DNA of 36,943 nucleotides from a virus: IMG/VR virus record IMGVR_UViG_3300020205_003021, positions 1 to 36,943 of that record, one strand, 5' to 3'. A program made the translations under genes and the position numbers. Of this stretch, positions 20,966 to 36,942 are shown piece after piece; the first letter of the stretch is position 1; each line of letters begins with the position of its first letter. The notes beneath the pieces were generated by a model. That model saw nothing but the letters and a program-made list of their open reading frames with translations, made no database searches and was not told where the DNA came from.

Positions 20966-21037
20966 TGGGCCAGGGAAATCCCCAGACACCACCGCCGCAT
21001 TTGTGCCGCAGGGCACACCAGATTGAAAGATTAAACC

Positions 21038-23365: not shown

Positions 23366-23380
23366 ACAAAGGAGAAAACA

Positions 23381-23848
23381 ATGCCGAAAGCAGGACAAGC
23401 ACTTCTGGACAATGCACGGGTACAGGGATTCCTGCACCTTGTGCGCTCACAGTGCCGCAAGTGCAATGTGAAATTCGTGCTTGCCGATTCGTATGGAGTC
23501 GGCAAGCAAGGCAAGGGCGATCTATGGGGCTACTTTCAAGAGCCAATGGTGAACACCCGGGGCAAGTCGCCTGGAATGCTCAAGGTTGCCACGAAAGATG
23601 TTCCGGTTGGCGAGTGGATTGTTACACTTGCCCATGAGTACGCACATTTTCTACAGTGGTTTCGCAATGATCCACTGTATGCCAAAGATGAAGACGAATA
23701 CCTGGCGCAAGAAATTGCGACAGAGCGTGAAGCGTTTGAGATTCTGAAGCGTTTCGAAATTCCCATTAACTACGAGTCTGCAAAGCGCAAGTCAAAAGAG
23801 TACATTCAAAAGTTGCGTAAAGACCAGACCACTTGGACTAGAGGATAA
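23381..23848 (+). CDS. Zincin-like metalloprotein
   Basis: A 155-residue protein with HEYAH at 85-89 (VTLAHEYAHFLQWF) and a downstream glutamate helix (IATEREAFEIL), which could supply the third zinc ligand, as in ImmA/IrrE or SprT-like proteins. Two cysteines near residue 25 (CRKC) may bind metal. AAGGAG precedes the ATG. It follows the VWA gene by 15 bases, so it is likely part of the same transcript. A protease acting on a repressor or host protein is plausible; the target is unknown. Confidence 0.7.
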   Translation: MPKAGQALLDNARVQGFLHLVRSQCRKCNVKFVLADSYGVGKQGKGDLWGYFQEPMVNTRGKSPGMLKVATKDVPVGEWIVTLAHEYAHFLQWFRNDPLYAKDEDEYLAQEIATEREAFEILKRFEIPINYESAKRKSKEYIQKLRKDQTTWTRG

Positions 23849-23852
23849 ACCC

Positions 23853-24332
23853 ATGAAGACCACACCACACACCATCCGCATCCGCATCTACCTTGCTGAT
23901 GTCGTCATGTTCATCATTGGCGTTCTGCTTGTTGCCGCACTTGCTGCTGCTGTTCCACCACCGGAGGATTACAACACCAACCGTATCCTGGATGCAATTC
24001 GCCAAGTAGAGACTGGCGGCGAGGCGGATCCGGCTGCGGCAGTGGGTGATGCGGGTAAAAGCATCGGCCCGTTTCAGATCTCCCGTGCTTACTGGCTTGA
24101 CGCTACCGAATACGATTCAAGCATTGGTGGCGAGTACACGGATTGTCGGGACGAAGCGTATGCCCGACAGATTGTTCAGGCTTACCTTTCCCGCTATGTC
24201 AAGGTGTGGACAGATGAAACCGTTGCCCGTACTCACAATGGTGGCGGTGGCATCTTGAAGAAAAAGAAAGACTCCAAGGCATGGCGAAACACCACCAAGT
24301 ATTGGCAACAGGTGGAAAAGCATTTACAATAA
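23853..24332 (+). CDS. Lysozyme-like muramidase with signal anchor
   Basis: A 159-residue protein. Residues 12-34 are a hydrophobic signal or anchor segment (ADVVMFIIGVLLVAALAAA). The remainder has a lysozyme-like layout: catalytic Glu in IRQVETGGE, then SIGPFQISRAYW, GGEYTDCRDE and ARTHNGGGG, then YWQQVEKHL. These match the destabilase/invertebrate-type lysozyme pattern (G.FQI...YW, HNGG). It could be an endolysin exported by the host Sec system, or a periplasmic muramidase. AGAGG lies 9 bases before the ATG. No holin is adjacent. Confidence 0.7.
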   Translation: MKTTPHTIRIRIYLADVVMFIIGVLLVAALAAAVPPPEDYNTNRILDAIRQVETGGEADPAAAVGDAGKSIGPFQISRAYWLDATEYDSSIGGEYTDCRDEAYARQIVQAYLSRYVKVWTDETVARTHNGGGGILKKKKDSKAWRNTTKYWQQVEKHLQ

Positions 24333-24335
24333 AAG

Positions 24336-24357
24336 ACCGCCCGGGGCTGCGGTTATT
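24336..24357 (+). terminator. Weak hairpin after the lysozyme gene
   Basis: A 5-bp stem (accgc / gcggt) with an 8-base loop, followed by tattatc. The flanking aataa and ttatt can extend it with a bulge. It is a poor terminator, though it sits at the end of the three-gene unit. Confidence 0.3.
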
Positions 24358-24405
24358 ATCGGACTCTGGTTGTAAGTGTATATGCAAGAACGGGTTACAC
24401 GGCAC

Positions 24406-24434
24406 TTGACAGAATTGCACTAATCTGGGACACT
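24406..24434 (+). promoter_or_regulatory. Promoter positioned for a leaderless transcript
   Basis: TTGACA, 17 bases, GACACT. The -10 is imperfect. Only 6 bases separate it from the ATG at 24441, and no Shine-Dalgarno site is present. The spacing equals that at 34904-34941. Confidence 0.5.
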
Positions 24435-24440
24435 TTAGAT

Positions 24441-25625
24441 ATGGCTTACTACTACGCTTTCAACCACCGCCCCTCTACTGCCCCAGCCACCCAATCGGTT
24501 GGCACACATCCCGAGTTGGCATACGATCCTGCTATTGGCCCTGATGCGGCTCTGGTTGCGGCTCGTCAAGCCAAGTGCCCGGGCTACAGGCTTCTTGCCA
24601 CTGTGCCACCGGTGGCAGACTACCTTGTTTTGGATGTGCCGTTTGGGCGCAAGGGGTCAGTCGAGATTCGCAATTGGGCCAAGCGCATTGGCGCACGCTG
24701 GGACGGCGCAAATTGGTGCATTGCCGCCACTCTGGTTGATTCTGACCGCCTTGAGGTCATCAACCAATTGTGCCTGTACCAGTCACACTATGCCCGCCCT
24801 GCCCCGGTCTACCTTGCACGATTCGGTCAGGACAACTGCATTGTGATTCTTCAAGTTCCTTTCGAGGAAAAGGACACGGCAAAGTCGGCGGGTGCACGCT
24901 GGGACACCAGCCTTCGCAAGTGGTATTTTCCTATGAAGGGTCAAATCGGCGTTGTTGCATTCTCGCAAAAGATTGCAGAGTTCGAGGAGAAGGGGTGGGT
25001 TGATACGGTTGCAACCGAAACCTTTAATGCCCGTTTTTTGGGCTGCAAGAACGCTGATCTTGACCGCTTGCGGATTGCACTTCACACCGCCGCCGCCGCC
25101 ACCGCTTTCGTGAACAAGATTGGCCCTTGGGGTGCGGGTAGTACAACTCCGGCCACCGCTGCTGCGCCCGCCGTGAAGTTTCCAATCAACTCGGAAGAGA
25201 TTCGCTGGATTAATGAACTCCTCAAGCGTAAGGATTCAACCACAGTTATTGCCGACCAGTGGATTTTGCAGTGTGAATCGCCCGAAGGGGCAAAGAAGTG
25301 GATTCGCATCCAGCGCATGGACGGCGTAACGGCGGCGGTGCGCCTTTCGTACTCGTTTGCCCCGCCAAGAGGTGAAACTCCAAAGTGGAGTCACCATTAC
25401 TATTCACAAGAAGAGTCTCGCTCGATGTGGAATGAAGCAACCGGTCGCCTTGGCTACACGGTTCTTGATCACCATCGCTACACTGGTCAAGAGTTTGCAT
25501 TCATTGCAGCGCATGGTTGTCAGGCGAAGGCGGGCGTGTTTCCGGTTGTCAACATCGGTTTGGCTGATGAAGTCGCCGACATTCTGTGCCGTCGAGGCTT
25601 GGGAAAAATTGAACGGCTTCCGTAA
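24441..25625 (+). CDS. Protein with two DUF5710-like domains
   Basis: A 394-residue protein. Two copies of a short module are visible: LVLDVPFGRK...AKRIGARWD at 62-89 and VILQVPFEEKD...SAGARWD with KWYFPM at 134-165. This is the DUF5710 pattern (V.Y.EKD.AK..GARWD...K.W...), common in phage and plasmid primase or nuclease-associated proteins. The C-terminal 220 residues have no family I recognise. The ATG is 6 bases from a promoter -10, so the transcript may be leaderless. Confidence 0.65.
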   Translation: MAYYYAFNHRPSTAPATQSVGTHPELAYDPAIGPDAALVAARQAKCPGYRLLATVPPVADYLVLDVPFGRKGSVEIRNWAKRIGARWDGANWCIAATLVDSDRLEVINQLCLYQSHYARPAPVYLARFGQDNCIVILQVPFEEKDTAKSAGARWDTSLRKWYFPMKGQIGVVAFSQKIAEFEEKGWVDTVATETFNARFLGCKNADLDRLRIALHTAAAATAFVNKIGPWGAGSTTPATAAAPAVKFPINSEEIRWINELLKRKDSTTVIADQWILQCESPEGAKKWIRIQRMDGVTAAVRLSYSFAPPRGETPKWSHHYYSQEESRSMWNEATGRLGYTVLDHHRYTGQEFAFIAAHGCQAKAGVFPVVNIGLADEVADILCRRGLGKIERLP

Positions 25626-25638
25626 AACATAACGAATA

Positions 25639-25671
25639 GGGGCGGGAGCGTCCGATAATAACTCCCGCCCC
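25639..25671 (+). terminator. GC-rich hairpin after the DUF5710-like gene
   Basis: A perfect 10-bp stem (ggggcgggag / ctcccgcccc) with a 13-base loop lies 13 bases after the stop codon. There is no T-run after it, so it may stabilise or process RNA rather than terminate. Confidence 0.4.
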
Positions 25672-25726
25672 CGGGCGTCTGCGAAAAAATAATCGTAACC
25701 CCTTGCACAGTAACAAGTTACACTGT

Positions 25727-25754
25727 TTGCATTAGATCTGATTTTTGGTATACT
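25727..25754 (+). promoter_or_regulatory. Sigma70-like promoter for the AAA+ gene
   Basis: TTGCAT, 16 bases, TATACT. The leader of about 66 bases begins with a perfect 6-bp hairpin (tcggga / tcccga, 25762-25779) followed by ttatcgttttt. That could stabilise the 5' end or act as an attenuator. Confidence 0.6.
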
Positions 25755-25826
25755 TTGTGAGTCGGGAAGTCTGTCCCGATTATCGTTTTTCCACTCTCGC
25801 ATTTGGTTTTTGAAAGGTTTCATCGT

Positions 25827-27107
25827 ATGGCAAAATCTGCCACCCAATCGTTCGTCCTCGCCAACCTGACCCGCAAGCAGAAGACTTTTGTTGCTGCGCT
25901 TCAACGGGCTGGCATCACCCATTCCCCTGTGAGCCGTCAGGCTCTGCTTGCCGTGTCTGAGGATTTGGGCATGGCGTATCCTCCGGCTTGGATTGCCCAA
26001 GACACCTCCCGCCGTGCTGGGCGTGGCGAGTACCTGGTTCCGGAAGTCGAGGAAACCACGGTTGCTTCTCTGCTTGGTGAGAAGCGTACTGCCAAGTCTG
26101 CCCCTGTGCTTGCCGCCGTTGCGGAAGCACGGGTTGCGCCTGTTGTTGGTAGCACCAATCTGGCGGCAACACTGCTTGCTGCCACTGGCGGTGATCGTGC
26201 AGATTTGGTTCCGGGTGTTGTGAACGAGTATGTGCCGTTCGGCAACTTCAAGGATCTGGAGACAATTATTCGTGCTGCAATGCCGAAGACCAATGTTTGG
26301 ATCTCCGGCCTTTCAGGCAACGGCAAGACGATGATGGTTGAGCAGGTCTGCGCCAAGTTGAAGCGTCCGTGCATTCGTGTCCAGATCACAAACCTTACCG
26401 ACGAAGACGATCTGCTTGGTGGCTTTCGTCTGGTGAACGGTGAAACCGTTTGGCAGGACGGCCCGGTGACTCTTGCTGTGGCAAATGGTTGGGTGCTGCT
26501 GCTGGATGAAATCGACTACGGCACAAGCAAGTTGTCGTGCCTCCAGTCAGTCTTGGAAGGCAACGGCGTGTTCATCAAGCAGACGAACCGCAAGGTGAAT
26601 GCCCAGAAGGGCTTTATTGTGATTGCCACGGCAAACACAAAGGGTCAGGGCGATGACACAGGCAAGTTTGTTGGTACGAACGGCATGAACGAAGCGTTCC
26701 TGGAGCGTTTCGGTGTCACAATGTGGCAACCGTATGCCACGGTGGCGGTTGAGAAGAAGATTTTGGAAAAGAAGATGTCGGCTCTGGGCATCCCAACCGA
26801 TTCGGCGTTTGCTGCAAACCTTTGCCAGTGGGCAGAAAACACCCGCCGCTCGTTTGAGGCTGGCGCTGGAGCCGACCTGATCTCCACCCGCCGTCTGGTG
26901 AATGTTGTTGAGTTGTTTGCCATCTTTGGTGAAAAGGAAAAGTCGATCAAGTATGCGATTGAGCGTTTCACCGATGAAACCAAGAAGGCGTTCTGGAGCC
27001 TCTACACGAAGATTGATGCCGAGGCTGTGGCAACCGTTGATCCAAAGGTGGATGCCCAGGCAAACACGGCGACCAAGTCAACGGATCCGAACGCTTGCCC
27101 GTTCTGA
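25827..27107 (+). CDS. MoxR/CobS-like AAA+ ATPase
   Basis: Start chosen at the ATG at 25827 (MAKSATQSFV, 426 residues), with GAAAGG 9 bases before; an upstream TTG is unlikely. Walker A GLSGNGKT (161-168), Walker B LLLDEID (224-230), sensor 1 ATAN (267-270) and arginine finger FLERF (R294) are all present. The first 75 residues are an added N-terminal domain. MoxR-family ATPases remodel protein complexes with VWA partners, here probably the product of 21038-23365. Phage annotations often call this CobS; no cobalamin role is implied. Confidence 0.85.
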   Translation: MAKSATQSFVLANLTRKQKTFVAALQRAGITHSPVSRQALLAVSEDLGMAYPPAWIAQDTSRRAGRGEYLVPEVEETTVASLLGEKRTAKSAPVLAAVAEARVAPVVGSTNLAATLLAATGGDRADLVPGVVNEYVPFGNFKDLETIIRAAMPKTNVWISGLSGNGKTMMVEQVCAKLKRPCIRVQITNLTDEDDLLGGFRLVNGETVWQDGPVTLAVANGWVLLLDEIDYGTSKLSCLQSVLEGNGVFIKQTNRKVNAQKGFIVIATANTKGQGDDTGKFVGTNGMNEAFLERFGVTMWQPYATVAVEKKILEKKMSALGIPTDSAFAANLCQWAENTRRSFEAGAGADLISTRRLVNVVELFAIFGEKEKSIKYAIERFTDETKKAFWSLYTKIDAEAVATVDPKVDAQANTATKSTDPNACPF

Positions 27108-27150
27108 TTCCTTCTGCGTGTGATGCGTGAGTGTGTGTACAGACAGGCCG

Positions 27151-27179
27151 GTCGGGGAGAAATCCCCGACAGGCTTTTT
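27151..27179 (+). terminator. Rho-independent terminator after the AAA+ gene
   Basis: An 8-bp stem (gtcgggga / tccccgac) is capped by a GAAA tetraloop, extended by gcc/ggc across a mismatch, and followed by cttttt. Confidence 0.85.
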
Positions 27180-27190
27180 CAAAAGTAAGA

Positions 27191-27299
27191 GTGCGTATGC
27201 ACCCCCTGATGGAATGATATTCAAACTGTTGTTAGCCGATGCATCGGCGAAACGCCCAAAGCAACACAACGGGTCACCCGTCAGGGGCTGCATACGCAT
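27191..27299 (+). ncRNA. Structured leader or RNA element with 19-bp outer stem
   Basis: Positions 27191-27209 pair with 27281-27299 (19 bp, one mismatch, one G-U). Inside are a 4-bp hairpin (gaat/attc, 27212-27222), a palindromic gccgatgcatcggc (27235-27248) enclosed by tgttg/caaca, and a gggtcaccc hairpin (27271-27279). Together they form a multibranched fold. It starts just after the terminator and ends 31 bases before the next ATG. It could be a regulatory leader, a separate small RNA or a cruciform DNA element. Confidence 0.5.
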
Positions 27300-27330
27300 T
27301 CAAGCGCAAGTCTTACAAGAAAGAAACAAA

Positions 27331-27774
27331 ATGACCAACGAAAACGACAACGACAACCGCATCGAACTCATCTCGCTCAACGAATTCGATGAGAACGACA
27401 TTGAACTTGGCGACGAAGACGAGCGTCCATTCCCCGACTCTGATGAGGCGATTCGTGCGCTTCAAGATATTGCCGAGGGTGTGGAGGAGTTGGAGGCTGA
27501 GTGTTATCGACTTCGTGCCGAACTCAAGACTGCACTCGCCGAGCGTGACGAGGCGAAGGGCACGATCACACGGATGAGGGATGGGTACGAGGGTTGCTGC
27601 CCGCTCTGCGAAACCGTTGGAATCCTCAATGTCAAGTTGCTTGCCGAGCGGGATGCCGCACGGCGTGAAGTGTGTGATTGGATGAACACGGATGAAAGCG
27701 GATGCCTGAAGAGCGGCTCCGCAGAAACAGCCGCCGAGCGTGGCTGGGATTGCTACAAGGAGGAATCCAAATGA
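27331..27774 (+). CDS. Acidic coiled-coil protein
   Basis: Start set at 27331 (MTNENDNDNRIELISLNEFD, 147 residues), with AAGAAAG before it. The N-terminal third is very acidic (DENDIELGDEDERPFPDSDE). A heptad helix follows (VEELEAECYRLRAELKTALAERDEAKG), then a CxxC (CCPLC) and a Trp/Cys-rich tail. Phage proteins with an ERD.A..E...W tail are common but uncharacterised. It overlaps the next gene by 4 bases. Confidence 0.6.
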   Translation: MTNENDNDNRIELISLNEFDENDIELGDEDERPFPDSDEAIRALQDIAEGVEELEAECYRLRAELKTALAERDEAKGTITRMRDGYEGCCPLCETVGILNVKLLAERDAARREVCDWMNTDESGCLKSGSAETAAERGWDCYKEESK

Positions 27775-28142
27775 CCACAAAAACCAAAACCAAACTCAAA
27801 CTCCCGGCCGATCTTCCGGACATTATAGCGCACGAAATTAAACGGTGCGTGTCGAGCGGCAGAAAAGCAGCCGATATATGGGTTATCACGAATCCGGATG
27901 TTAGTTCGTCGTGGGTGAGTTCGCCCCACGGCAGCCGTGCCCAGTTGTGGATCTTGCTCTACAAGGGTGCACCGCCGCATGACTACATGATTTACGGCAA
28001 GCAGTGGGAGCAGTGGACACACAAGTTCTCCAAGCGGTGCGAACCTGTGGTTGGAACCACGGATTGGTGGTCTTGGAGTCAAGACTATGCCCATCGGCAG
28101 TGGGCAAAGCTGGTTTCCGAAGGGTGGAAGAGAATCGTATGA
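27771..28142 (+). CDS. Small-protein family member, C-terminal W...GW
   Basis: Start at the overlapping ATG at 27771 (MTTKTKTKLKLPADLPD, 123 residues), with GGAGG 7 bases upstream. The basic N-terminus is followed by VSSPHGSRAQLWILLYKG. The C-terminus HRQWAKLVSEGWKRIV fits the W-x2-LV-x-x-G-W motif shared by several downstream proteins. No known domain. ATGA overlaps join it to both neighbours. Confidence 0.6.
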   Translation: MTTKTKTKLKLPADLPDIIAHEIKRCVSSGRKAADIWVITNPDVSSSWVSSPHGSRAQLWILLYKGAPPHDYMIYGKQWEQWTHKFSKRCEPVVGTTDWWSWSQDYAHRQWAKLVSEGWKRIV

Positions 28143-28588
28143 ATCCAATTGATCCAATCATGACATTTGTTAAATGCGAACAGAATCTTCGAAGCCGCAT
28201 TATTCCACCAGGAATGTGGGATGTTTTAAAGAGCACGGCGGCAAAGCACCCGTGCATTTCAATTCTGCAACGCATCGACTTGCTTAACGATGCCGAGCGG
28301 GGTTGGCGGGCTGAAATCTCGTATTTGGCGTTTACTCCAAATTTGGTTGCCTACACCTGTACAACCCAACACTTTCATGAAACAGTACAATTCACGCCCG
28401 CATTCGAAGAGCAAAGGTGGACCACAAAAGAATTTCAACACAACCCCAAAGAACAAGCCCTTGACAAGGCCCGGGCAGAATGGGACGAGTTGGTTACCCG
28501 CCACGGTTGGTGGGTGTTTCATAAGAATGCTGTTGGTCTGGTGACCCGTTGGAACTCCCAAATCCCTTCAAATCCCCTCACAGTATAA
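28139..28588 (+). CDS. Small-protein family member, C-terminal W...GW
   Basis: Start at 28139 (MNPIDPIMTFVKCEQNLRSR, 149 residues), overlapping the previous stop. Central strands (EISYLAFTPNLVAYTC) lead to ARAEWDELVTRHGWWVFHK, the family motif, followed by an extra GLVTRWNSQIP tail. Function unknown. Confidence 0.6.
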   Translation: MNPIDPIMTFVKCEQNLRSRIIPPGMWDVLKSTAAKHPCISILQRIDLLNDAERGWRAEISYLAFTPNLVAYTCTTQHFHETVQFTPAFEEQRWTTKEFQHNPKEQALDKARAEWDELVTRHGWWVFHKNAVGLVTRWNSQIPSNPLTV

Positions 28589-28608
28589 CCAAACAAGGAG
28601 AACTGCAA

Positions 28609-28875
28609 ATGGACAATTTTGATGATTTTGATACCGGTATCCAGTGCGACGAACTCGTTCCGGACTGGTACACAGAAGAGGCGGATGACTCCCGTGGCTT
28701 GACTGCGGACGAGCGTGACCATGCCGGTCTGCACAACCGTTGGCGTGACGAGTGCTTTCAGGATTGCGATGCCGATGACGAGGATGAACTGGTTGCCGTG
28801 TTTGGTGCAGACGACCCGGACAACTATACAGGCGACCCCGGGGACTCTGAAGAAGGAGCCGATGATGACTGGTAA
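28609..28875 (+). CDS. Small highly acidic protein
   Basis: An 88-residue product starting MDNFDDFDTGIQCDELVPDW, with AAGGAG before the ATG. It is exceptionally rich in Asp and Glu throughout (ADDSRGLTADE, DCDADDEDELVAV). Such proteins can mimic nucleic acid, as some phage anti-restriction proteins do, but nothing beyond composition supports that here. Overlaps the next gene by 11 bases. Confidence 0.6.
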   Translation: MDNFDDFDTGIQCDELVPDWYTEEADDSRGLTADERDHAGLHNRWRDECFQDCDADDEDELVAVFGADDPDNYTGDPGDSEEGADDDW

Positions 28876-29074
28876 AATCAAAGAACCAGGGGCGGGTGTT
28901 ATTACTGGACACCCTCCGGTAACCCCGTCCCAGGCTGAACTTACCCGGGTGCTTTTGGAGGTTCGTAGCCTTTTGAAATCCCCGGACGGCAGCAGCCTGA
29001 TTTTGGATTACCGTGTGCGCCGTGCAGTTTTTGCAATTGAAATTGTCCTTGGAGGAATTCGACATGGGTCTTGA
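28865..29074 (+). CDS. Small hypothetical protein (69 aa)
   Basis: Start chosen at the second of two adjacent ATGs (28865), since AAGGAG is then 6 bases upstream. Product MTGKIKEPGAGVITGHPPVT, then a helical region (LTRVLLEVRSLLKSPDG) and RVRRAVFAIEIVL. No family recognised. Its end overlaps the next start by 11 bases. Confidence 0.55.
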   Translation: MTGKIKEPGAGVITGHPPVTPSQAELTRVLLEVRSLLKSPDGSSLILDYRVRRAVFAIEIVLGGIRHGS

Positions 29075-29417
29075 CTCTTTTGCCTGGTATCGCAATCCTA
29101 TTACCCAAGAGCCTGAGCCAATGCCTGACGAGTTGTTTGCCGGGGTGGAGCCGCTGTGCGGCGGGTTGTTTTCTGGCGGCAACGGGAATTCGTTTCGTGG
29201 CAAGGTGTATGCGGGCTTTCTCCAAAACGCCATCGGATTGGATTTGTACCAATTGGAAAACCACAATATCCAAGGGGTTGCCGACCGGCTGGAGAATTGG
29301 TGTAAATCCAATCCCGGATTAGAGTTTTCCGATATTTCCGGGACGCAGATCCAGGCTTTGGCAGAGTGGTTTCGAGTAGTAGAGAAAAACAGTGGATTTG
29401 TGGTGGGATGGTGGTAA
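29064..29417 (+). CDS. MGLD-type hypothetical protein
   Basis: A 117-residue product beginning MGLDSFAWYR, with GGAGG before the ATG. The MGLD(S/M)xAxx start followed by GNGNSFRGKVYAGFL and DRLENW resembles a widespread phage and bacterial family of unknown function that starts MGLDMY. No catalytic residues are known for it. It is the last gene before an intergenic gap and a strong promoter. Confidence 0.6.
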   Translation: MGLDSFAWYRNPITQEPEPMPDELFAGVEPLCGGLFSGGNGNSFRGKVYAGFLQNAIGLDLYQLENHNIQGVADRLENWCKSNPGLEFSDISGTQIQALAEWFRVVEKNSGFVVGWW

Positions 29418-29490
29418 GAATCCAATCCCTTCCACTCTTCAAATCGTAAGAATGAGAAAAAGAAAGAATCGTAAATTTCGACTCTACCTC

Positions 29491-29519
29491 TTGACAGACC
29501 GCCTATCGTACAGTATACT
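29491..29519 (+). promoter_or_regulatory. Near-consensus sigma70 promoter
   Basis: TTGACA, 17 bases, TATACT, the best promoter match in the window. Transcription would start near 29526 and read the 29616 gene. A 12-codon reading frame (29581-29619, MAHRSQKARISA) ends by overlapping that gene's ATG, and might be a leader peptide. The rest of 29418-29580 holds nothing else I can support. Confidence 0.8.
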
Positions 29520-29615
29520 ATAGGTGTACCAATAAGGGAAAGAAAAAGTCTTCTCTCCCCAGTGTAAGGGTTTCTTAATAATGGCTCACCGCAGCCAGAA
29601 GGCAAGGATAAGCGC

Positions 29616-29774
29616 ATGATGAAGGTTAATTCAAAGTCGGATCTCACTGTTGCCAAGCGTGTTGCCCGCAAGACCGGTTCGCCTGTGGTCTATCGGGCCA
29701 AGGGCAAGCGGGGCACGGGACGCATTGTGCCGTTTGGAGATGGTCGTGTGGTTGTGTTCTCTACCCAGGGCTAA
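29616..29774 (+). CDS. Small basic protein (52 aa)
   Basis: ATG at 29616 (a second ATG follows directly) with AAGGAT upstream. It encodes MMKVNSKSDLTVAKRVARKT, then YRAKGKRGTGRIVPFGDGRV and VVFSTQG. The many Arg/Lys and short strands suggest a nucleic-acid-binding peptide. It lies between a near-consensus promoter and a terminator, a single-gene transcription unit, which supports it being real. Confidence 0.7.
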   Translation: MMKVNSKSDLTVAKRVARKTGSPVVYRAKGKRGTGRIVPFGDGRVVVFSTQG

Positions 29775-29790
29775 ACTATAGCCCCTCCCG

Positions 29791-29826
29791 GGGTGCGCCG
29801 GATGGAAGATTCCGGTGCACCCTTTT
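29791..29826 (+). terminator. Rho-independent terminator
   Basis: A 12-bp stem (gggtgcgccgga / tccggtgcaccc) containing one G-U pair, an 8-base loop and a trailing tttt. It follows the small basic protein gene. Confidence 0.8.
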
Positions 29827-29875
29827 CACCGTGTTACTAACTGTTTCGCAATTTCTCTGAAAGGCAAGAATCCAT

Positions 29876-30220
29876 ATGGCTCGTACACGCAAGAATACTG
29901 TTGCCCCTGCTTCAATTCAATTGGATTGGGTTGGCATTGAGGCTGATCTGAACGCTGGGCGCAAGGTTTCGCTTTCCATTTTGGCAAAGGCATTCAATGT
30001 GTTTCCGATTGATCTTCGCAAGATTTTTCAAAACCGCTTTGGTGACCGCATTGTGTTTAAGCGTGGGCGCACAGGCGGCATCTACTGGAAGACTTCGGCT
30101 GGTGCTGTTGTGAAGCAGCCCACTGTTCGGGTGACCCAAATCACCCCTGCGCTTTTGCACGGCAACACCCCTGTTGCCCCTGTTGCCCCTGCCCCTGCCC
30201 CTGTTGCGGCAAAGGCTTAA
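29876..30220 (+). CDS. Putative DNA-binding protein with Ala-Pro tail
   Basis: A 114-residue protein. Residues 15-75 look like a winged-helix or HTH domain (LDWVGIEADLNAGRKVSLSI, LAKAFNVFPIDLRKIF, then GDRIVFKRGRTGGIYW). The C-terminus is a disordered Ala/Pro/Val repeat. Basic N-terminus MARTRKN. GAAAGG lies upstream. A small transcriptional regulator is the simplest reading; no family name can be given. Confidence 0.6.
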   Translation: MARTRKNTVAPASIQLDWVGIEADLNAGRKVSLSILAKAFNVFPIDLRKIFQNRFGDRIVFKRGRTGGIYWKTSAGAVVKQPTVRVTQITPALLHGNTPVAPVAPAPAPVAAKA

Positions 30221-30225
30221 TAGGG

Positions 30226-30350
30226 CACCGGGCTTGGCTCACACTCTCCGCTACAGGCTTTCAGTTCTCGTCATGCCGTAGCGTACCTATATTATGATTT
30301 GGTTTCCCCCAATGAATTGGCGTGGAATGAGAGTGTGAGCCGCCCTGGGT
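30226..30350 (+). ncRNA. Structured intergenic element with perfect 13-bp outer stem
   Basis: ggctcacactctc (30236-30248) pairs perfectly with gagagtgtgagcc (30329-30341). Beyond a small internal loop the pairing extends with ggg/ccc and acc/ggt to 30227 and 30350. Inside are a hairpin cgctac-a-ggc / gcc-gtagcg (30249-30283) and ccaa-tgaa-ttgg (30309-30320), giving a three-way junction. It begins 6 bases after a stop codon in a 241-base gap. Candidate small RNA, leader or DNA cruciform; it matches no family I know. Confidence 0.5.
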
Positions 30351-30387
30351 AAGCGTAAACGACGATAGAATACAGTAAAACCAAAGG

Positions 30388-30430
30388 TGGCCCCCCGTGT
30401 TACCTTTTTCACCATGCCATCGGGGGGCCA
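30388..30430 (+). other. Strong GC hairpin with 23-base loop
   Basis: tggccccccg (30388-30397) pairs perfectly with cggggggcca (30421-30430). No T-tract follows. It is 31 bases before the next ATG, so it could affect translation or RNA stability of the 30462 gene. Confidence 0.6.
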
Positions 30431-30461
30431 AAATGTTGAGTTTTAGGTTCAAAGATAAGAT

Positions 30462-30677
30462 ATGAAAAACAAACCCCCCATGTCCCCCCTACCGCCCATG
30501 TCACCGCCACCTGATGTGCCCCGTCCACCACCCGGAACCGCCCGTATTTTGAACGGGCTTACAGACGGCTGCCTGATTGGTGCAATCCTGATCTTTTTCT
30601 GTGTTTTTCCGCCTGTTTCCATTCTGCTGATTGCCCTATGGCTGGTAGACGAAATTCGCACCCGACCCCGCCCGTAA
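30462..30677 (+). CDS. Small proline-rich membrane protein
   Basis: A 71-residue protein. The first 28 residues are Pro-rich (MKNKPPMSPLPPMSPPPDVP), then one or two hydrophobic segments (CLIGAILIFFCVF and SILLIALWLV) and a basic tail (EIRTRPRP). Consistent with an inner-membrane protein with a proline-rich, possibly cytoplasmic N-terminus. Holin-like activity is possible but not supported further. Confidence 0.55.
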   Translation: MKNKPPMSPLPPMSPPPDVPRPPPGTARILNGLTDGCLIGAILIFFCVFPPVSILLIALWLVDEIRTRPRP

Positions 30678-30698
30678 CACCCAAAAGGCACACCCAGC

Positions 30699-31028
30699 AT
30701 GAGCACCACCACCACTACCTACAGCCTTAAGCAAGACGGCGGTGATTCCGCATTCTGTACCCGCATTGCTTTCACCGTGCGGGAAGGCGAGGACAGAGCC
30801 GTAATGATCAAGCATCACTCGGATCCGTCAGACCCTGCAAAGTACAGTCCACAATTTCATATTAATGTGGAGGGCGTGGAAAAGATCATCTACTCCAATA
30901 TTTGGGTGACCCCTGAGTTTGCTGCCCGGGTATGGGCAGCATTTACAACTCCTGTTCCAACAACAGATTCTGCTGCCAGATCCGCTGGCGAACAGCAATC
31001 ATGGGTCAGATGGAGAATTCAAGACTAA
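30699..31028 (+). CDS. Small-protein family member, diverged
   Basis: A 109-residue protein starting MSTTTTTYSLKQDGGDSAF. Strands AFTVREGEDRAVMIKHH and HINVEGVEKIIYSNIWVTPE match the layout of the 31324 and 32609 products (phage-early beta strands, then an I-W-V-x-(T/P) turn). FAARVWAAF corresponds to the helix of the family motif, but the final G-W is replaced by an insertion ending WVRWRIQD. AAAGG upstream. Confidence 0.6.
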   Translation: MSTTTTTYSLKQDGGDSAFCTRIAFTVREGEDRAVMIKHHSDPSDPAKYSPQFHINVEGVEKIIYSNIWVTPEFAARVWAAFTTPVPTTDSAARSAGEQQSWVRWRIQD

Positions 31029-31058
31029 AACGGCTAAAGCCGAAAAGGAAAAAACACT

Positions 31059-31331
31059 ATGCAGACTAATCCAAAAAATCCATTTGCTGCCATTACCGAC
31101 TCGCCCCTTCGCCCCCGTTCTGGAGCGGTTCCACTTTTTCTGCCCGCACTGTGGGCGGCTCTCTTTTTGGGCAACGGGGTGGTTGCAGTACTGGTTGCTC
31201 AGAATGATTGGGTGGGGTGGCAGCGGGTGGTAGTGGAAGGCTTTAGCGGTGCAGAGCCATTAGTGTACTCTGCGGCGGTTCTTCTAAACCTGTACTGCTT
31301 GCCCCGCCTGTGGAGCCGATCCAATGCATAA
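31059..31331 (+). CDS. Small membrane protein, two TM segments
   Basis: A 90-residue protein. Hydrophobic segments at about 25-47 (VPLFLPALWAALFLGNGVVA) and 67-83 (LVYSAAVLLNLYCLP) predict two membrane passes with short polar ends. AAAGG upstream; overlaps the next gene by 8 bases. Holin-like or superinfection-exclusion roles are conceivable only by topology. Confidence 0.6.
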   Translation: MQTNPKNPFAAITDSPLRPRSGAVPLFLPALWAALFLGNGVVAVLVAQNDWVGWQRVVVEGFSGAEPLVYSAAVLLNLYCLPRLWSRSNA

Positions 31332-31638
31332 CACAACCCATGTGCTGCTGTGCCCTGCACTCACAAATCCTTTGGAGTTTCATGGGTTGGCATTCTCCCC
31401 GGCCGGGGACGGCAGCGGGGTAAGTTTGCAGGCCCGTGTTCGGGCTGACGGCTGGGCCGAGATAATCTTTAGTGAGCCGTGGGTGGGCACGGTTAACCCG
31501 TCAACGGTTGGCAGACTTTTGGGAATTAAAGTTTTTCCGGGTGTGCCGCTGCACAACTTGCCGCCCGAATATGCCCGTTTTGTCTGGAACCAAGCCGCCG
31601 CCCAAGGGTGGCAGCGGGAACGGGGCCGTGCGGATTAA
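31324..31638 (+). CDS. Small-protein family member, C-terminal W...GW
   Basis: A 104-residue protein: MHNTTHVLLCPALTNPLEFH, strands ending in AEIIFSEPWVG, and C-terminus YARFVWNQAAAQGWQRERG. The THVLL(C/S)P start recurs in the 32609 product and the WNQ helix in the 32266 product, which supports common descent. Function unknown. Confidence 0.65.
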   Translation: MHNTTHVLLCPALTNPLEFHGLAFSPAGDGSGVSLQARVRADGWAEIIFSEPWVGTVNPSTVGRLLGIKVFPGVPLHNLPPEYARFVWNQAAAQGWQRERGRAD

Positions 31639-31689
31639 ACAGCCGCAAAGCCAAAGCAGTGGTATGATATATACATACATACAATACAG

Positions 31690-31695
31690 TATAAT
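31690..31695 (+). promoter_or_regulatory. Candidate -10 box (TATAAT)
   Basis: A perfect TATAAT lies 20 bases before the 31715 ATG, but a -35 is not convincing. AAGGAA follows at the expected start of the RNA. Confidence 0.4.
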
Positions 31696-31714
31696 CTCAA
31701 TCAAGGAAACCACA

Positions 31715-32149
31715 ATGCTCTATAAGAATTTCAGAGAAACCCTTCGAGACATTATCGAAGGCAAAACCACTCCCAACCGCCAAGACATTACCGAGGCAAC
31801 TGATGACAATGATCGACTCATTGGTAAATACCATTTTGATGCCGAAGGCGCACCACCAAATAGTCCTCTTTCACATGAAGGCGAAATGGAAGGTTGGACG
31901 ATTCGTATGGGTCGAGGCGGCAAGAAGATTGGGTACATTGAAGGCAATGAAGAAGATTTTGATGTTTATACTGTGGTTCTCTACAATGATATGTCAGACT
32001 CTGCGCCAATTCGTGAGCCGCAAGGTCGCTTTGTGGTTGGAAAAAGCGAATCCATCAATCCAAAGGGTGGCACTTTTGTTTCAAATCAAAAGATATTGCA
32101 AGTTATCACCAAGTGGATTACCAAGTACGGTCAAAAGTACATCAATTAA
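31715..32149 (+). CDS. Hypothetical protein with ITE cleavage-like site
   Basis: Start set at 31715 (MLYKNFRETLRDIIEG, 144 residues), with AAGGAA upstream. The leader is similar to the tag family but imperfect (IIE). NRQDITEA at residues 22-29 is exactly shared with the 18492-19022 product. The body has WTIRMGRGGKKIGYIEG, DVYTVVLYND and a C-terminal helix (ILQVITKWITKYGQKY). It could be a virion protein expressed from the rightward block. A strong terminator follows. Confidence 0.6.
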   Translation: MLYKNFRETLRDIIEGKTTPNRQDITEATDDNDRLIGKYHFDAEGAPPNSPLSHEGEMEGWTIRMGRGGKKIGYIEGNEEDFDVYTVVLYNDMSDSAPIREPQGRFVVGKSESINPKGGTFVSNQKILQVITKWITKYGQKYIN

Positions 32150-32207
32150 AGAAAATCTAAAAAATCCCTAATGGAAATACAAAAAATCCAAACGGGAAAA
32201 CAAAAAG

Positions 32208-32250
32208 AAATCAGGGCAGGAGCATTCACTTGACTCCTGCCCTGATTTTT
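32208..32250 (+). terminator. Strong rho-independent terminator
   Basis: A 15-bp perfect stem (32208-32222 with 32234-32248), an 11-base loop and a T-run (ttttt, 32246-32250). The loop contains most of the -35 of the next promoter. Confidence 0.9.
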
Positions 32251-32258
32251 GGTAGCAT
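32230..32258 (+). promoter_or_regulatory. Promoter nested in a terminator, leaderless arrangement
   Basis: TTGACT, 17 bases, TAGCAT. The -35 spans the hairpin loop and its 3' edge, and the spacer is the 3' arm plus T-run. The ATG at 32266 is 7 bases after the -10 and has no Shine-Dalgarno site. Confidence 0.6.
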
Positions 32259-32265
32259 GGTAACC

Positions 32266-32616
32266 ATGTCAAGCCAACAACAACAACAACCCACCAAGTC
32301 TGTTTATGTGCTTGCCTCGCCCTATGGCGTATGGTGCTTGCACTTTACCGGTGAACACAATTCCGTTATGCACCTGACTCTTACGAATAATCCACAGAAT
32401 GGCTTTGCGGCGAATACTGAAGAGTTGGTTGTGCCTTTGGATTCTGAATTTGCCGTGCGATGGGGTTTTGCCGATCCGCAAATAGTCTTGCTTACAGAAG
32501 GGTGGAGTGGTGATGCAGTACTACGCAGACTACGAATGAAGAACTACGACAAAAAGTTCTGCCGTGGCTTGTGGAACCAATTGGTTGGGTGTGGTTGGAG
32601 TATTTCCCATGAGTGA
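32266..32616 (+). CDS. Small-protein family member, C-terminal W...GW
   Basis: Start chosen at 32266 (MSSQQQQQPTKSVYVLASPY, 116 residues) because it sits at the predicted transcript start; an ATG at 32257 lies inside the -10. KSVYVLASP and a beta-rich middle resemble the THVLL(C/S)P members, and the C-terminus is KFCRGLWNQLVGCGWSISHE. Poly-Gln N-terminus. Probably leaderless. Overlaps the next gene by 8 bases. Confidence 0.65.
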   Translation: MSSQQQQQPTKSVYVLASPYGVWCLHFTGEHNSVMHLTLTNNPQNGFAANTEELVVPLDSEFAVRWGFADPQIVLLTEGWSGDAVLRRLRMKNYDKKFCRGLWNQLVGCGWSISHE

Positions 32617-32893
32617 AAACACCAAACAGACCCATGTGCTTTTGTCGCCTACTGGTTCAGCCAAAATTGCGTTTACGCTTTTCTGCCCTGCATTGGAAAT
32701 GGTGCTAATCCACTTTACCTGTAGCCACTTAGACCAAACGGCTTGCTTTTACATTACAGGCTTAAAGCCTATTTGCCCTGTTTGGGTTGAAGAAATAATG
32801 ATTCCTGTGGACAAGCCAGCCGCAATGAGTATTCCTACGGCTCGGGAAGTTTGGCGCACTCTGGTTGAAACCCACGATTGGAGAGCAGAGTAA
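32609..32893 (+). CDS. Small-protein family member, C-terminal W...W
   Basis: Start at 32609 (MSENTKQTHVLLSPTGSAK, 94 residues) with GGAG 8 bases upstream. Shares THVLLSP with the 31324 product and ends TAREVWRTLVETHDWRAE, where the family glycine is Asp. Includes two cysteines in the central strands. TAATG junction with the next gene. Confidence 0.65.
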   Translation: MSENTKQTHVLLSPTGSAKIAFTLFCPALEMVLIHFTCSHLDQTACFYITGLKPICPVWVEEIMIPVDKPAAMSIPTAREVWRTLVETHDWRAE

Positions 32894-33207
32894 TGGCAAC
32901 AATTCACCACTCCCAAACAGTAACATCCTACTATCTTCGAAATCCGATGAATGCAGGACGAATGCAGTTTATTGTGACCAGTTCAACCAATCCAGGACTT
33001 GTAACCACGGTGCGAATGCTGTACTTTCCTATGGGTTTAAGCAATCGCCAATCACAGTCCTTTGAATGGTATCCGCCTGACAAAAAGTTCTTGAACCATT
33101 TCAATACTGTGAAATCAAGTGAAAACCATACAAGGGCATATGCCCAAAGCGTATGGGACGACTTTGTGAGCAAAGGTTGGGAAATCAAAAAGGAAAACAC
33201 ACCATGA
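32893..33207 (+). CDS. Small-protein family member, C-terminal W...GW
   Basis: Start at 32893, sharing its A with the preceding TAA (104 residues, MATIHHSQTVTSYYLRNPM). Central strands (MQFIVTSSTNPGLVTTVRML) and C-terminus YAQSVWDDFVSKGWEIKKE. Third consecutive member in this cluster. Stop overlaps the next ATG. Confidence 0.65.
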   Translation: MATIHHSQTVTSYYLRNPMNAGRMQFIVTSSTNPGLVTTVRMLYFPMGLSNRQSQSFEWYPPDKKFLNHFNTVKSSENHTRAYAQSVWDDFVSKGWEIKKENTP

Positions 33208-33464
33208 AGAAGACCAAGACCACTACTGTTCGCACCAAGTCCATCAAGGTTGAGATTTCTGAAAAGAATCTCCTTACAATTAATTCTCGCATTGAGAACT
33301 GCACGGATTTGCTTCAAGACTTGCTTAACAAGTCTGAAGAAGGAAGTCTTTCGCCTGTTCAGTTTGAGCGGTGCGGGGAAAGAATCATCCATTTGTTGAG
33401 CAATGCTCTTGATCCAATTCAGGATGAACTTGCTGATGCTGTTATGCGTTCGTCCAACCGCTAA
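33204..33464 (+). CDS. Small hypothetical helical protein (86 aa)
   Basis: Starts MKKTKTTTVRTKSIKVEISE with AAAGG upstream. A basic N-terminus precedes a charged helical body (LLTINSRIENCTDLLQDLLN, IIHLLSNALDPIQDELADAV). It overlaps the previous gene by 4 bases. No family recognised. Confidence 0.6.
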   Translation: MKKTKTTTVRTKSIKVEISEKNLLTINSRIENCTDLLQDLLNKSEEGSLSPVQFERCGERIIHLLSNALDPIQDELADAVMRSSNR

Positions 33465-33484
33465 ACCTAAACACGGAGAACACC

Positions 33485-33709
33485 ATGACGAATGACAACA
33501 CCAAAGAAACCGATATTGTGCGTGAGCAGGACAAGCGCAAGATGGAGGAAGCCACGATTATTGTGATTGAGAATGAATTGGACTTGCACAATTCTGTGCC
33601 TGGTGACACGGGCGACCGCTATGACCTTGGCGGGGATGAGTGGATCGACTCCCACACGGGAGCAGACACTTGGTATCGGCAGAGCGAACACCGACTGCCA
33701 AAGCAATAG
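33485..33709 (+). CDS. Small acidic hypothetical protein (74 aa)
   Basis: CGGAGA precedes ATG at 33485. The product is polar and acidic (MTNDNTKETDIVREQDKRKM, EATIIVIENELDLHN, then YDLGGDEWIDSHTGADTWY). The last half is rich in Asp and Trp. Function unknown. Confidence 0.55.
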   Translation: MTNDNTKETDIVREQDKRKMEEATIIVIENELDLHNSVPGDTGDRYDLGGDEWIDSHTGADTWYRQSEHRLPKQ

Positions 33710-33730
33710 GGTTGCATACATACCATTACG

Positions 33731-34777
33731 ATGAAGTCATTCTTACAATACATCACCGAAGGTAAGTATTGGGAGCGCAGCAACCGAAAGCCCCAATGGG
33801 CTGCATCCCCTTGGCAGCACATTCTTGGAATAAAGTCGAGTGAGCGAAGGGAAGTTCCCCTGACCGCAAAGTTGGTTAACGAGATATGGAAAACTCCTGT
33901 TGTTACCACAGTATTTCATACTACAGATGCTGATGGTGCTATGTTTGTAATGAAAAATCAAGGCAAGAAAGGGCTTGCTATAAGTGTAACACCAAATGCG
34001 CCCTACACCACAATGGCACAGTATGGAATTTGGAAGGGTGGTGTTGTAATGAAACTGCGAGCCAATATCTTGGTGGGTGGAACAAGCGATATTATGTCCG
34101 TGCCTGATGAGGGTGGTCGCCGTTGGGTGCATTCACAAACCATCTCAAACATTATACCAAACGAACACAGGTTCCAATATCGTTCTGAAATGGAAGAAGC
34201 AAATCTACTTTCATCAGAGCATTTGGTAGGAATGCTGCTGCCCATCTTGGAGAAGCAGAAGGCAAGCGGAGAATACAATGAAGGTGGACTATTAGAATTG
34301 AATTTTTTCATTAAACTCCTCACGGATATTAAACGGGCAGATTCTGTTGGGGAAAACAGGCGGCGATGGGTGCAACTCTTCTCATCAGGCAACATCCTAC
34401 TGGCAGATATGGCAAAGAAGGAACTCGGCGTGTTTGTCAAGGCTCACATTGATAGAGTTAATGTAATACTAAAAAAGTATCTTGGGTATGCCCGACAAGA
34501 AATCGAGGAGTTGGCGGCTCGGACTCGCATAACCCCATCAGGCTACTGGGAACTTGTTGCAAACCAATACAAAGTGCTTGGCGTTGCATGGTATAATGCA
34601 AATGTTTGGGGTATTGGATTGGAGGAATTGGAAAAGGCGACTGCCGCCGCAGGAGTTCCACTTTGGAACTTTGCAGAACAGGATAGAGACTGGAAGGGTA
34701 AATCAGAGAGATGGACACTTAAACCAGACGAAGAACTACACGCCACCAAAGACTACAAAGAGTACATCAAGAAATGA
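33731..34777 (+). CDS. Tagged large hypothetical protein, possibly ART-like
   Basis: A 348-residue protein with a perfect tag (MKSFLQYITE). The following region resembles a conserved phage family I recall but cannot name: VFHTTDADGAMFVMKNQGK, KGLAISVT, GGVVMKLRANILVGGTSDIM and PDEGGRRWV. The VFHTT...G...ISVT arrangement is reminiscent of the first half of ADP-ribosyltransferase-type folds, though no catalytic glutamate can be fixed. The second half is helical, with ITPSGYWELVANQYKVLG. It is the only canonical tag outside the leftward block. The C-terminal part could be virion-internal after cleavage at ITE. Confidence 0.6.
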   Translation: MKSFLQYITEGKYWERSNRKPQWAASPWQHILGIKSSERREVPLTAKLVNEIWKTPVVTTVFHTTDADGAMFVMKNQGKKGLAISVTPNAPYTTMAQYGIWKGGVVMKLRANILVGGTSDIMSVPDEGGRRWVHSQTISNIIPNEHRFQYRSEMEEANLLSSEHLVGMLLPILEKQKASGEYNEGGLLELNFFIKLLTDIKRADSVGENRRRWVQLFSSGNILLADMAKKELGVFVKAHIDRVNVILKKYLGYARQEIEELAARTRITPSGYWELVANQYKVLGVAWYNANVWGIGLEELEKATAAAGVPLWNFAEQDRDWKGKSERWTLKPDEELHATKDYKEYIKK

Positions 34778-34812
34778 AATCGTTTAGGGTATATACCAAT
34801 TGGAAAAAATCA

Positions 34813-34842
34813 ATTTGGATTGTAATTGAAGAGAATCCAAAT
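34813..34842. other. Inverted repeat in intergenic region
   Basis: atttggatt and aatccaaat (9 bp, perfect) are separated by 12 bases in an AT-rich 161-base gap (34778-34938). No T-run follows; it may be an operator or a weak terminator. Nothing else coding is seen in the gap. Confidence 0.4.
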
Positions 34843-34903
34843 CCATTTAGATCTATTCCAAACAGATTTCAAAGAATCTAAAATAAAAGATTGTCCCGTC
34901 CAC

Positions 34904-34932
34904 TTGACTTGGCTTCCCTCTTCGGGTATACT
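34904..34932 (+). promoter_or_regulatory. Strong promoter placed for a leaderless transcript
   Basis: TTGACT, 17 bases, TATACT, then 6 bases to the ATG at 34939, with no Shine-Dalgarno site in between. This is the clearest of the three leaderless-type junctions. Confidence 0.75.
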
Positions 34933-34938
34933 TCAAGT

Positions 34939-35157
34939 ATGAAAACCAAGACCCCAAAGTACCCACACATCATTGTTCCGCTTGTTGGCGAGGAGGGCAA
35001 TGCCTTTGCCATTCTTGGACGCACGAATCGTGCCTTGCGCCTACACGATATTCCAAAGGATAAGATCAACCTGTTTATGAAGGAAGCAATGAGCGGCGAC
35101 TACAACCACTTGCTCTGCACCGTCATGGATTGGGTCACCACCAATGAAGAGGAGTAG
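34939..35157 (+). CDS. Conserved small phage protein (EGNAFAILG type)
   Basis: Start at 34939 (MKTKTPKYPHIIVPLVGEEG, 72 residues), directly after the promoter. The sequence pattern V.L.G.(D/E)GNAFAI.GR...AL, then a helix and EAMSGDYNHLLCTVMDWV, is one I recognise from many small phage and bacterial proteins of unknown function. An upstream in-frame ATG at 34891 is behind the promoter and unlikely. Confidence 0.7.
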   Translation: MKTKTPKYPHIIVPLVGEEGNAFAILGRTNRALRLHDIPKDKINLFMKEAMSGDYNHLLCTVMDWVTTNEEE

Positions 35158-35162
35158 AACTA

Positions 35163-35420
35163 ATGGCAAAGAAGCGTGACACACAATCTTTGATCGGCAA
35201 GACCTTCTACTTCTGCGATTCGTGGGAGTGGGACGATGACGAGGAGCCGCTGCTTGACGAGGATGGAGAGATCCTTTACGAAATCTGCGGAGATTGGAAA
35301 ATCACTTCCGCCGATGCGAATAAGGACGGAGATGTTTGGGCGTGTATTGAGATTCAAGACCGAGATTTCCAAATCGAACTTCCCATCTCGTTTCTTCCAG
35401 AGAGCGTGTGGTGGGATTAA
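35163..35420 (+). CDS. Small acidic hypothetical protein (85 aa)
   Basis: Starts MAKKRDTQSLIGKTFYF, with GAGGAG in the end of the preceding gene. Strongly acidic centre (WEWDDDEEPLLDEDGEILYE) then a beta-rich C-terminus (VWACIEIQDRDFQIELPISF). Function unknown. Confidence 0.6.
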   Translation: MAKKRDTQSLIGKTFYFCDSWEWDDDEEPLLDEDGEILYEICGDWKITSADANKDGDVWACIEIQDRDFQIELPISFLPESVWWD

Positions 35421-35434
35421 AAGGAGTGAAAGCA

Positions 35435-35803
35435 ATGCCTCTTGAGAATGAAATCGGATTCAGCATTCGGGCGAAAGTATTTAACATGGGCATGGTGGGC
35501 ATGGGTGGTGGTACAGCAGACCGTGGTTTCCGAATCTGTTTCGCCAACGGCTACGCTATCTCTGTGCAATTTGGTACTATGAACTACTGCTCTGCAAATA
35601 ATTCGACTGGTGGCATTCCTCACAATGTCAAGCCAAATGAATGGATGGAGTCTGTTTGCCCTGATGCAGAGATTGCCATTATTGCACCTGACGGAGAGTT
35701 TGTTCCGTTCAAGGACGGGCAGGGTGTGCGTGGACATACATCGCCTGACTCGCTTGCCGAGGTTATAGCGTGGGTCGTGAAGCAACCAAACAACCCCAAG
35801 TAA
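35435..35803 (+). CDS. Hypothetical protein (122 aa)
   Basis: Start set at 35435 (MPLENEIGFSIRAKVFNMGM), with AAGGAG upstream; a GTG at 35408 overlaps the previous gene and is less likely. Gly/Met-rich turn, then beta strands (FRICFANGYAISVQFGT) and a helix at the end (SLAEVIAWVVKQP). Some phage proteins share the FANGY.ISVQ pattern; no function known. Confidence 0.6.
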   Translation: MPLENEIGFSIRAKVFNMGMVGMGGGTADRGFRICFANGYAISVQFGTMNYCSANNSTGGIPHNVKPNEWMESVCPDAEIAIIAPDGEFVPFKDGQGVRGHTSPDSLAEVIAWVVKQPNNPK

Positions 35804-35814
35804 AAGGAATCCAA

Positions 35815-36087
35815 ATGAACGCCCGTGACCACACTCTTCTTCGTCTTGTTTGTTCGCACACCAAGCACAGCCAGGCTTTTCCAATCCTGTCTGGATCGTA
35901 TGCAGAACTGCTCTCTGCCTATACTGATCTGCTTGGTGCGGTCAAGGATCACCACTTGAATGGAACCAAAATCACACCAGACCAGGTAAAGGCTGTCCAT
36001 GAAAAGGCGATGGCTTCCATAAAATCTTTCCGCAAGGCAATTGCCCCTATCACCGAAACTGATGACAACTCCAACGAGGAGAACTAA
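35815..36087 (+). CDS. Small helical hypothetical protein (90 aa)
   Basis: Start at 35815 (MNARDHTLLRLVCSHTKHSQ) with AAAAGGA upstream. Mostly helical (YAELLSAYTDLLGAVKDHHL, then DQVKAVHEKAMASIKSF). No family named. Its end holds a CTAAATAC sequence next to the stop. Confidence 0.6.
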   Translation: MNARDHTLLRLVCSHTKHSQAFPILSGSYAELLSAYTDLLGAVKDHHLNGTKITPDQVKAVHEKAMASIKSFRKAIAPITETDDNSNEEN

Positions 36088-36095
36088 ATACCCGT

Positions 36096-36374
36096 ATGGA
36101 AAAGCAAAACTACAATCCCACCACCACCATTGGTTTGCAATTAGGTTTGGTTTTTCCATTCCTTGCATTGCTCTTTACAGTTTTGAAACTGTATGAAATC
36201 ATTGATTGGTCTTGGTGGCTTGTTCTTTCACCAATGGTTTTTCATGTAGTAGGAATCTTGCTCTTTCTTTTATCCATCGGCTTGCTTTCCTTGGCAGCAA
36301 TGCTATACTTGCTTGGTGGCACAATGAAGCGTTTCACGGAAACCCTAAAGGAGAAGTCAAATGACAATGCCTGA
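36096..36374 (+). CDS. Small membrane protein, two TM helices
   Basis: A 92-residue protein. Two hydrophobic spans, about 14-32 (LQLGLVFPFLALLFTVLKL) and 42-74 (LVLSPMVFHVVGILLFLLSI continuing to LYLLGG), flank a short EIIDWSWW loop. The basic C-terminal tail is likely cytoplasmic. GGAG lies unusually far from the ATG. Unknown role; holin is only one topological possibility. Confidence 0.6.
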   Translation: MEKQNYNPTTTIGLQLGLVFPFLALLFTVLKLYEIIDWSWWLVLSPMVFHVVGILLFLLSIGLLSLAAMLYLLGGTMKRFTETLKEKSNDNA

Positions 36375-36942
36375 CAACAACAACAACTCCAAGAAGAACG
36401 ACGGTGTTCGCAAGCACATCAACGAGATCCGCAACCAAGTTGAGCGGCTTCGCAAGATGGTTGATGAAATCTCTGATGGGAAGGAGTCATCACAGGACAA
36501 CAGCATGGCATTCTTTTCCATGAATCCACAGGATACAGAGTTTATTAGTGCTGTTCCCACACAGTTCGGCGATAACAAAATCAATCACCCACAGAAAAAC
36601 AAAAAGAGCCTTAGCCCGGATCTTGCACAATTTTTCTTGGCAGCAGGAATGCTTCTCCACGATGCGCTGTATCTTCCCTTCGCAAAGGGGCGTGGTCGCC
36701 TGACCGATTTCTTTAATTGGGTTGAGAAGGCTTCCGACCGCATGGGCAAAGAAGACTTTAATGATGATGAACGCCAGCAGTTCTTGGATTGGTGTGCCAA
36801 TGTTGGTGCTGCCTTGTTGGCAGCACAAGAAAAACATGGCTTGTGGCTTACCGATGACGAAGAAGATTTGGTGCTTGCCATGAGCAATAGTGATCTTTTG
36901 AACAACGATGGAGAATTGGGCAATGATTCACACGACTTCTAA
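36361..36942 (+). CDS. Hypothetical protein with coiled coil (193 aa)
   Basis: Start at 36361 (MTMPDNNNNSKKNDG) with AAGGAG upstream; it overlaps the membrane-protein gene by 14 bases. A coiled-coil segment (INEIRNQVERLRKMVDEISD) is followed by a polar linker and an alpha-helical domain (DLAQFFLAAGMLLHDALYLP, DFFNWVEKASDRM, FLDWCANVGAALLAAQEKHG). The gene is complete; TAA ends one base before the window does. Confidence 0.6.
   Translation: MTMPDNNNNSKKNDGVRKHINEIRNQVERLRKMVDEISDGKESSQDNSMAFFSMNPQDTEFISAVPTQFGDNKINHPQKNKKSLSPDLAQFFLAAGMLLHDALYLPFAKGRGRLTDFFNWVEKASDRMGKEDFNDDERQQFLDWCANVGAALLAAQEKHGLWLTDDEEDLVLAMSNSDLLNNDGELGNDSHDF

Follow-up and report, generated by a model that had tools for sequence, protein, structure and literature searches.

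The window that we analyzed was the complete IMG/VR record IMGVR_UViG_3300020205_003021 (36,943 bases). Seven small genes on its + strand encode the putative members, A to G, of a protein family.

27771-28142, + strand: member A, 123 aa, C-terminal end YAHRQWAKLVSEGWKRIV
28139-28588, + strand: member B, 149 aa, ARAEWDELVTRHGW plus a 25-aa tail
30699-31028, + strand: member C, 109 aa, diverged motif FAARVWAAF...SW
31324-31638, + strand: member D, 104 aa, starting THVLLCP and ending YARFVWNQAAAQGW
about 32266-32616, + strand: member E, about 116 aa, starting SVYVLASP and ending FCRGLWNQLVGCGW
32609-32893, + strand: member F, 94 aa, starting THVLLSP and ending TAREVWRTLVETHDW, overlapping E
32893-33207, + strand: member G, 104 aa, ending YAQSVWDDFVSKGW, with a 1-base overlap with F

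The first-pass annotation had described six products with a C-terminal W...G-W motif and a seventh, ending at 31028, with a diverged version of it, and all of these coordinates were confirmed. In six ORFs (A, B, D, E, F, and G), the C-terminal end is a helix of the form A-R-x-x-W-x-x-L-V-x-x-G-W; the seventh (C) reads A-A-R-V-W-A-A-F, then an insert, and then S-W. When a strict pattern, W-x-x-[hyd]-[hyd]-x(1-3)-[G/D]-W, was required near the C-terminal end (i.e., within 25 residues), the + strand ORFs of the window that matched were exactly A, B, D, E, F, and G; the other window matches were two minus-strand ORFs of spurious appearance, one 48 aa long and the other antisense to the CobS gene. 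Nine contigs, all of them unrelated, matched a degenerate DNA pattern for ARxxWxxLVxxGW. The shared starts already noticed for D, F, and E also held up and proved to be wider, with TSYYLRNP in G, TYSLK in C, and IWVITNP in A joining the set.

Three of the gene pairs overlap (A/B through ATGA, E/F, and F/G through TAATG), a pattern as in translationally coupled genes, and D has an 8-nt overlap with the end of the small gene before it. A strong SD-like AAGGAGG lies upstream of A, and an alternative start of E is possible at 32257. By codon usage trained on the larger window genes, all seven members lay in the best-coding sense frame; for F and G, one antisense frame was near or above the sense score. 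The region contained 16 promoter-like sites compared to 12.8 ± 4.1 by chance, and because this number is not above chance, early expression of the family is something that we infer. One of the sites, at 29491, was near consensus (11/12). Just before E, an inverted repeat at 32208-32250 (ATCAGGGCAGGAG...CTCCTGCCCTGAT, then a T-run) overlaps a promoter-like TTGACT-17-TAGCAT, the use of which would leave E nearly leaderless.

The CobS/MoxR-like AAA protein encoded at 25833-27107 led us to a related phage. This protein had 80 relatives, of which the one on a 92,327-base IMG/VR contig, L002, was 68% identical and the others were about 42-51% identical. Gene order is common to L002 and the window over 21035-36942, and L002 encodes seven small proteins with a similar C-terminal helix in intervals matching those of the window members; the counterpart of C was assigned to L002 13479-13868 by position and by sequence (pairwise shuffle z of 6.5). 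Flanking and interspersed genes of the + strand block gave blastp matches between the two phages, mostly of 38-68% identity, whereas no family member had a blastp partner at E ≤ 1e-3. The matching positions, combined with this loss of similarity amid recognizable neighbors, indicate an old family that has kept its map positions while diverging fast. The UvsX-like recombinase, DnaB-like helicase, and DNA primase encoded by L002, along with Pelagibacter phage Mosig and T4-type cyanophages as the closest records for the AAA protein, point to a T4-type lineage. Other scans of viral contigs for relatives (using D, the DUF5710-type protein described below, and two neighboring-gene alignments) returned nothing or L002 only.

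Two of the neighbors deserve mention. The 21038-23365 product, encoded near the AAA gene, appears by eye to be CobT-like, with a metal-binding helix and a von Willebrand-like region; within this CobT-like/CobS-like pair, Pfam recognizes the AAA part only. After G and one other small ORF, a small protein found in the two phages only is encoded at 33485-33709, and its end, RYDLGG[DE]EWIDSxTGADTWYRQxEHRLPK, is strongly conserved; an exact DNA pattern for this product recovered L002, and a single-sequence scan found nothing.

Profiles built from one phage retrieved members from the other with better scores than decoys, as is expected of a single family. With a profile made from L002 proteins only (including the DUF5710-type counterpart), A, B, D, E, F, and G ranked first to sixth among all six-frame ORFs of the window, with E values of 0.0045 to 0.47. 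When the profile was restricted to the small L002 members, five of these six ranked first to fifth, and the best reversed decoy appeared at E of about 0.8. The reciprocal search of L002 with the window profile detected 15286-15684 at E 7.8e-6. Median global identity across the 14 members was 25.7%. A weak profile match, G001 17299-17913, was dropped because the protein is longer, carries the motif internally, and does not otherwise show the domain pattern. The sequence comparisons and the models presented below support the view that the seven window proteins and the seven L002 proteins are diverged copies of one small domain. The first-pass annotation had taken the members to be paralogs that multiplied in this phage. 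Paralogy is borne out by the cross-phage ranking, the synteny, and the shared predicted topology of E and G; the multiplication in this particular phage is not, as the L002 set is equally large and occupies the same places. The expansion thus appears to largely predate the split of the two phages, and the set was probably present in their common ancestor.

Searches of Pfam, PHROG, NCBIfam, and PADLOC yielded no family match. A tblastn search of 50,697 phage records with A, B, E, F, G, and two L002 members gave nothing above chance, a profile search of the 79 loci around the other CobS-like relatives (about 42-51% identity) detected no member, and a sequence search of the PDB with the family profile returned one chance match. 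Being absent from Pfam, PHROGs, and NCBIfam, the set would amount to a new protein family, recognizable by a clear signature.

AF2 models of G (mean pLDDT of 73.5, pTM of 0.64) and E (mean pLDDT of 78.5, pTM of 0.67) were built on one shallow 12-sequence family alignment and are, for that reason, not fully independent. The modeled E sequence began with MT, where VT is encoded immediately ahead of the Met at 32266; this discrepancy concerns one N-terminal residue, ahead of the first predicted strand, and its effect is expected to be nil. The two models, both of moderate confidence, have a common core order, beta-beta-beta-...-alpha-beta with a variable middle, which may reflect a common fold. 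W88/W105 are located mid-helix and the GW lies at the junction of the last helix and the last short strand; hence, the motif looks like core or scaffold packing.

The closest solved structure to the E model (rank 1) was 2ra8 1-70 (Z of 5.1, 2.5 Å over 62 residues), a WGR domain by sequence (E 1.3e-21). For G, WGR domains of PARP1/2/3 made up 7 of the 13 best entries (Z of 4.2-5.1), and the BFVD matches of both models include a phage protein annotated as WGR. The VIA-align Z values of both models to WGR chains, 4.2-5.1, are within the range of common arrangements, the Foldseek probabilities of the model matches were low, and scores as good as those of WGR were obtained for CYTH/triphosphate-tunnel and Mediator Med18/20 chains. 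WGR domains (Pfam PF05406; PARP1/2/3, MolR-like proteins, and 2ra8) resemble the family in their size, in the predicted succession of strands and then one C-terminal helix that ends in G-[WY], and in providing the best or near-best solved neighbors of both models. Unlike WGR domains, the family has a longer variable middle, no W/Y-G-R/K-x-G signature, and no significant sequence or profile match to them. The Pfam WGR profile matched no member up to E 10 and nothing in either phage record, and profile-profile comparisons of the family with WGR domains (70-sequence and 10-sequence sets) were not significant. On reading the sequences, a W/Y/F-G-R/K-[IVL]-G motif after the second strand was absent from all 14 members, E and L002 15310 having only RWGF/EWGF in the variable middle. 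On the basis of the models, a WGR-like fold is plausible for the family. A CYTH-like fold (7ns8, 2aca, and 3sy3, matched over part of the chain with similar Z for both models) was considered and not preferred because the match spans only part of a much larger tunnel fold; an unsystematic look at the members noted no ExExK-type signature.

A further copy of the domain may reside in a larger protein encoded next to the CobS-like AAA gene.

24441-25625, + strand: larger DUF5710-repeat protein that may contain an internal copy of the family domain (SQEESRSMWNEATGRLGY); L002 counterpart at 8596-9783

This protein has two DUF5710 repeats according to Pfam and is conserved in L002. The family profile matched the L002 counterpart at E 3e-4 and the window protein only at E 0.15, on its DUF5710 part, so a fusion of the family domain to DUF5710 repeats is possible.

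The best explanation of these results as a whole, to which we tentatively assign a probability of about 0.45, is that the members are diverged paralogs with a WGR-like scaffold that form an expanded set of small host- or phage-directed binders. The seven window proteins would be copies of a single alpha+beta domain, about 90-120 residues long, that stands alone. Three N-terminal strands would open its core, with the T-[HY]-x-L-x-x-P start on the first; the variable middle would come next, and the core would end with the C-terminal helix A-R-x-x-W-x-x-L-V running through G-W into the last short strand. In the predicted models, the W and GW would fix the helix onto the sheet and thus represent a scaffold signature, not an active site. 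The predicted fold would be most like that of WGR domains without the W-G-R signature for contacting DNA ends. The domain would have expanded in an ancestor of the T4-type lineage and then diversified rapidly at fixed map positions. The likeliest role would be that of small binding modules with a constant scaffold and variable surfaces, each of which may recognize its own target, a host (or phage) protein or a nucleic acid, and so aid infection. The homology, synteny, and divergence of the members were seen in the comparisons and the fold was predicted; we infer the binding and host-directed role from the small size of the members, the coupling of their genes, the patchy surroundings, and the fast divergence, all of which fit host-directed binding proteins. 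Fast change relative to neighboring genes is often seen in host-directed accessory proteins.

The main rival to host-directed binding, which we place first, is that the members are true WGR descendants that serve as nucleic-acid-binding modules in phage replication, transcription, or repair and are not aimed at the host. The WGR-like fold match and the possible copy fused to DUF5710 repeats beside the CobS-like gene fit such a nucleic-acid-related role, and WGR has been described as binding DNA in jumbo phages and in MolR-like factors (PMC7824862). However, the W-G-R/K-I-G signature is missing throughout the family, and from replication proteins one would expect stronger, not weaker, conservation than that of the neighboring genes; we regard this alternative as less probable.

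It is unlikely, in our judgment, that the members are specific inhibitors of host defense systems, as the first-pass annotation had suggested. They are small, non-core proteins from coupled genes that diverge faster than their neighbors, and location, small size, and fast divergence are the features from which this suggestion derives; PHROG and PADLOC, however, gave no match of value to known anti-defense or defense families, and no NCBIfam match had any bearing on this role. Paralogs that keep their positions while losing identity amid similar neighbors are good candidates for arms-race genes, and the 14 natural variants are available as a ready set for host-toxicity and anti-defense screens. 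Lineage-specific expansions of small domains in phages similarly involve many diverged copies in one lineage, as in Bacillus phage G with about 35 zinc-ribbon copies (PMC7824862); that expansion concerns another domain, whereas the copies described here keep their map positions between two phages. The T-even internal proteins, some of which are anti-restriction proteins, are likewise diverse small phage proteins with one conserved element, but that element is an N-terminal capsid targeting sequence, which is absent from the family (PMC3012670).

In a further alternative, the C-terminal helix is the sole true homology, a short module (e.g., a shared partner-docking helix) on unrelated domains. 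Pairwise shuffle tests gave 32 of 120 pairs at p ≤ 0.01, with about 1.2 expected, and this number fell to 7 of 120 when the C-terminal motif was removed (that of D was not cleanly cut), indicating that much of the signal, though not all, resides in the last helix. Much of the cross-phage profile score is also located there. Against this helix-only homology, seven pairs remained significant without the motif (E versus L002 15310 had a z of 5.7), the T-[HY]-x-L start is common to members, and E and G have the same predicted core order; this alternative is rather improbable. Still more doubtful is an elaboration of our preferred reading, namely that a WGR-derived domain lost its DNA-end signature and gave rise to at least 14 small host-directed binders, with hypervariable loops and conserved positions, that act against different host defenses. 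Chance occurrence of the motif in short ORFs of similar composition deserves almost no credence: the pattern was picked after inspection, but its probability near the C-terminal end after shuffling each protein was 0.0004-0.004, the reversed-decoy and cross-phage tests agree that it is not chance, and the cross-phage ranking already contradicts that explanation.

Elsewhere in the window, eight proteins begin with a sequence of the type MK[TPQS][FY]xx[YFL][IL]xE (MKPFSQYITE, MKTYSQFIAE, MKPFSHYIIE, MKSFLQYITE, and others).

7805, 12324, 15030, 15656, about 16160 (MKPFSQYINE), 17562, and 18416, minus strand: MK-type starts
33731, + strand: MK-type start

These starts resemble the T4 capsid targeting sequence. 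Beyond the start the proteins differ, one appearing NUDIX-like and one HAD-like by eye; as a set, they may be carried inside the capsid and injected (for background, see PMC3012670).
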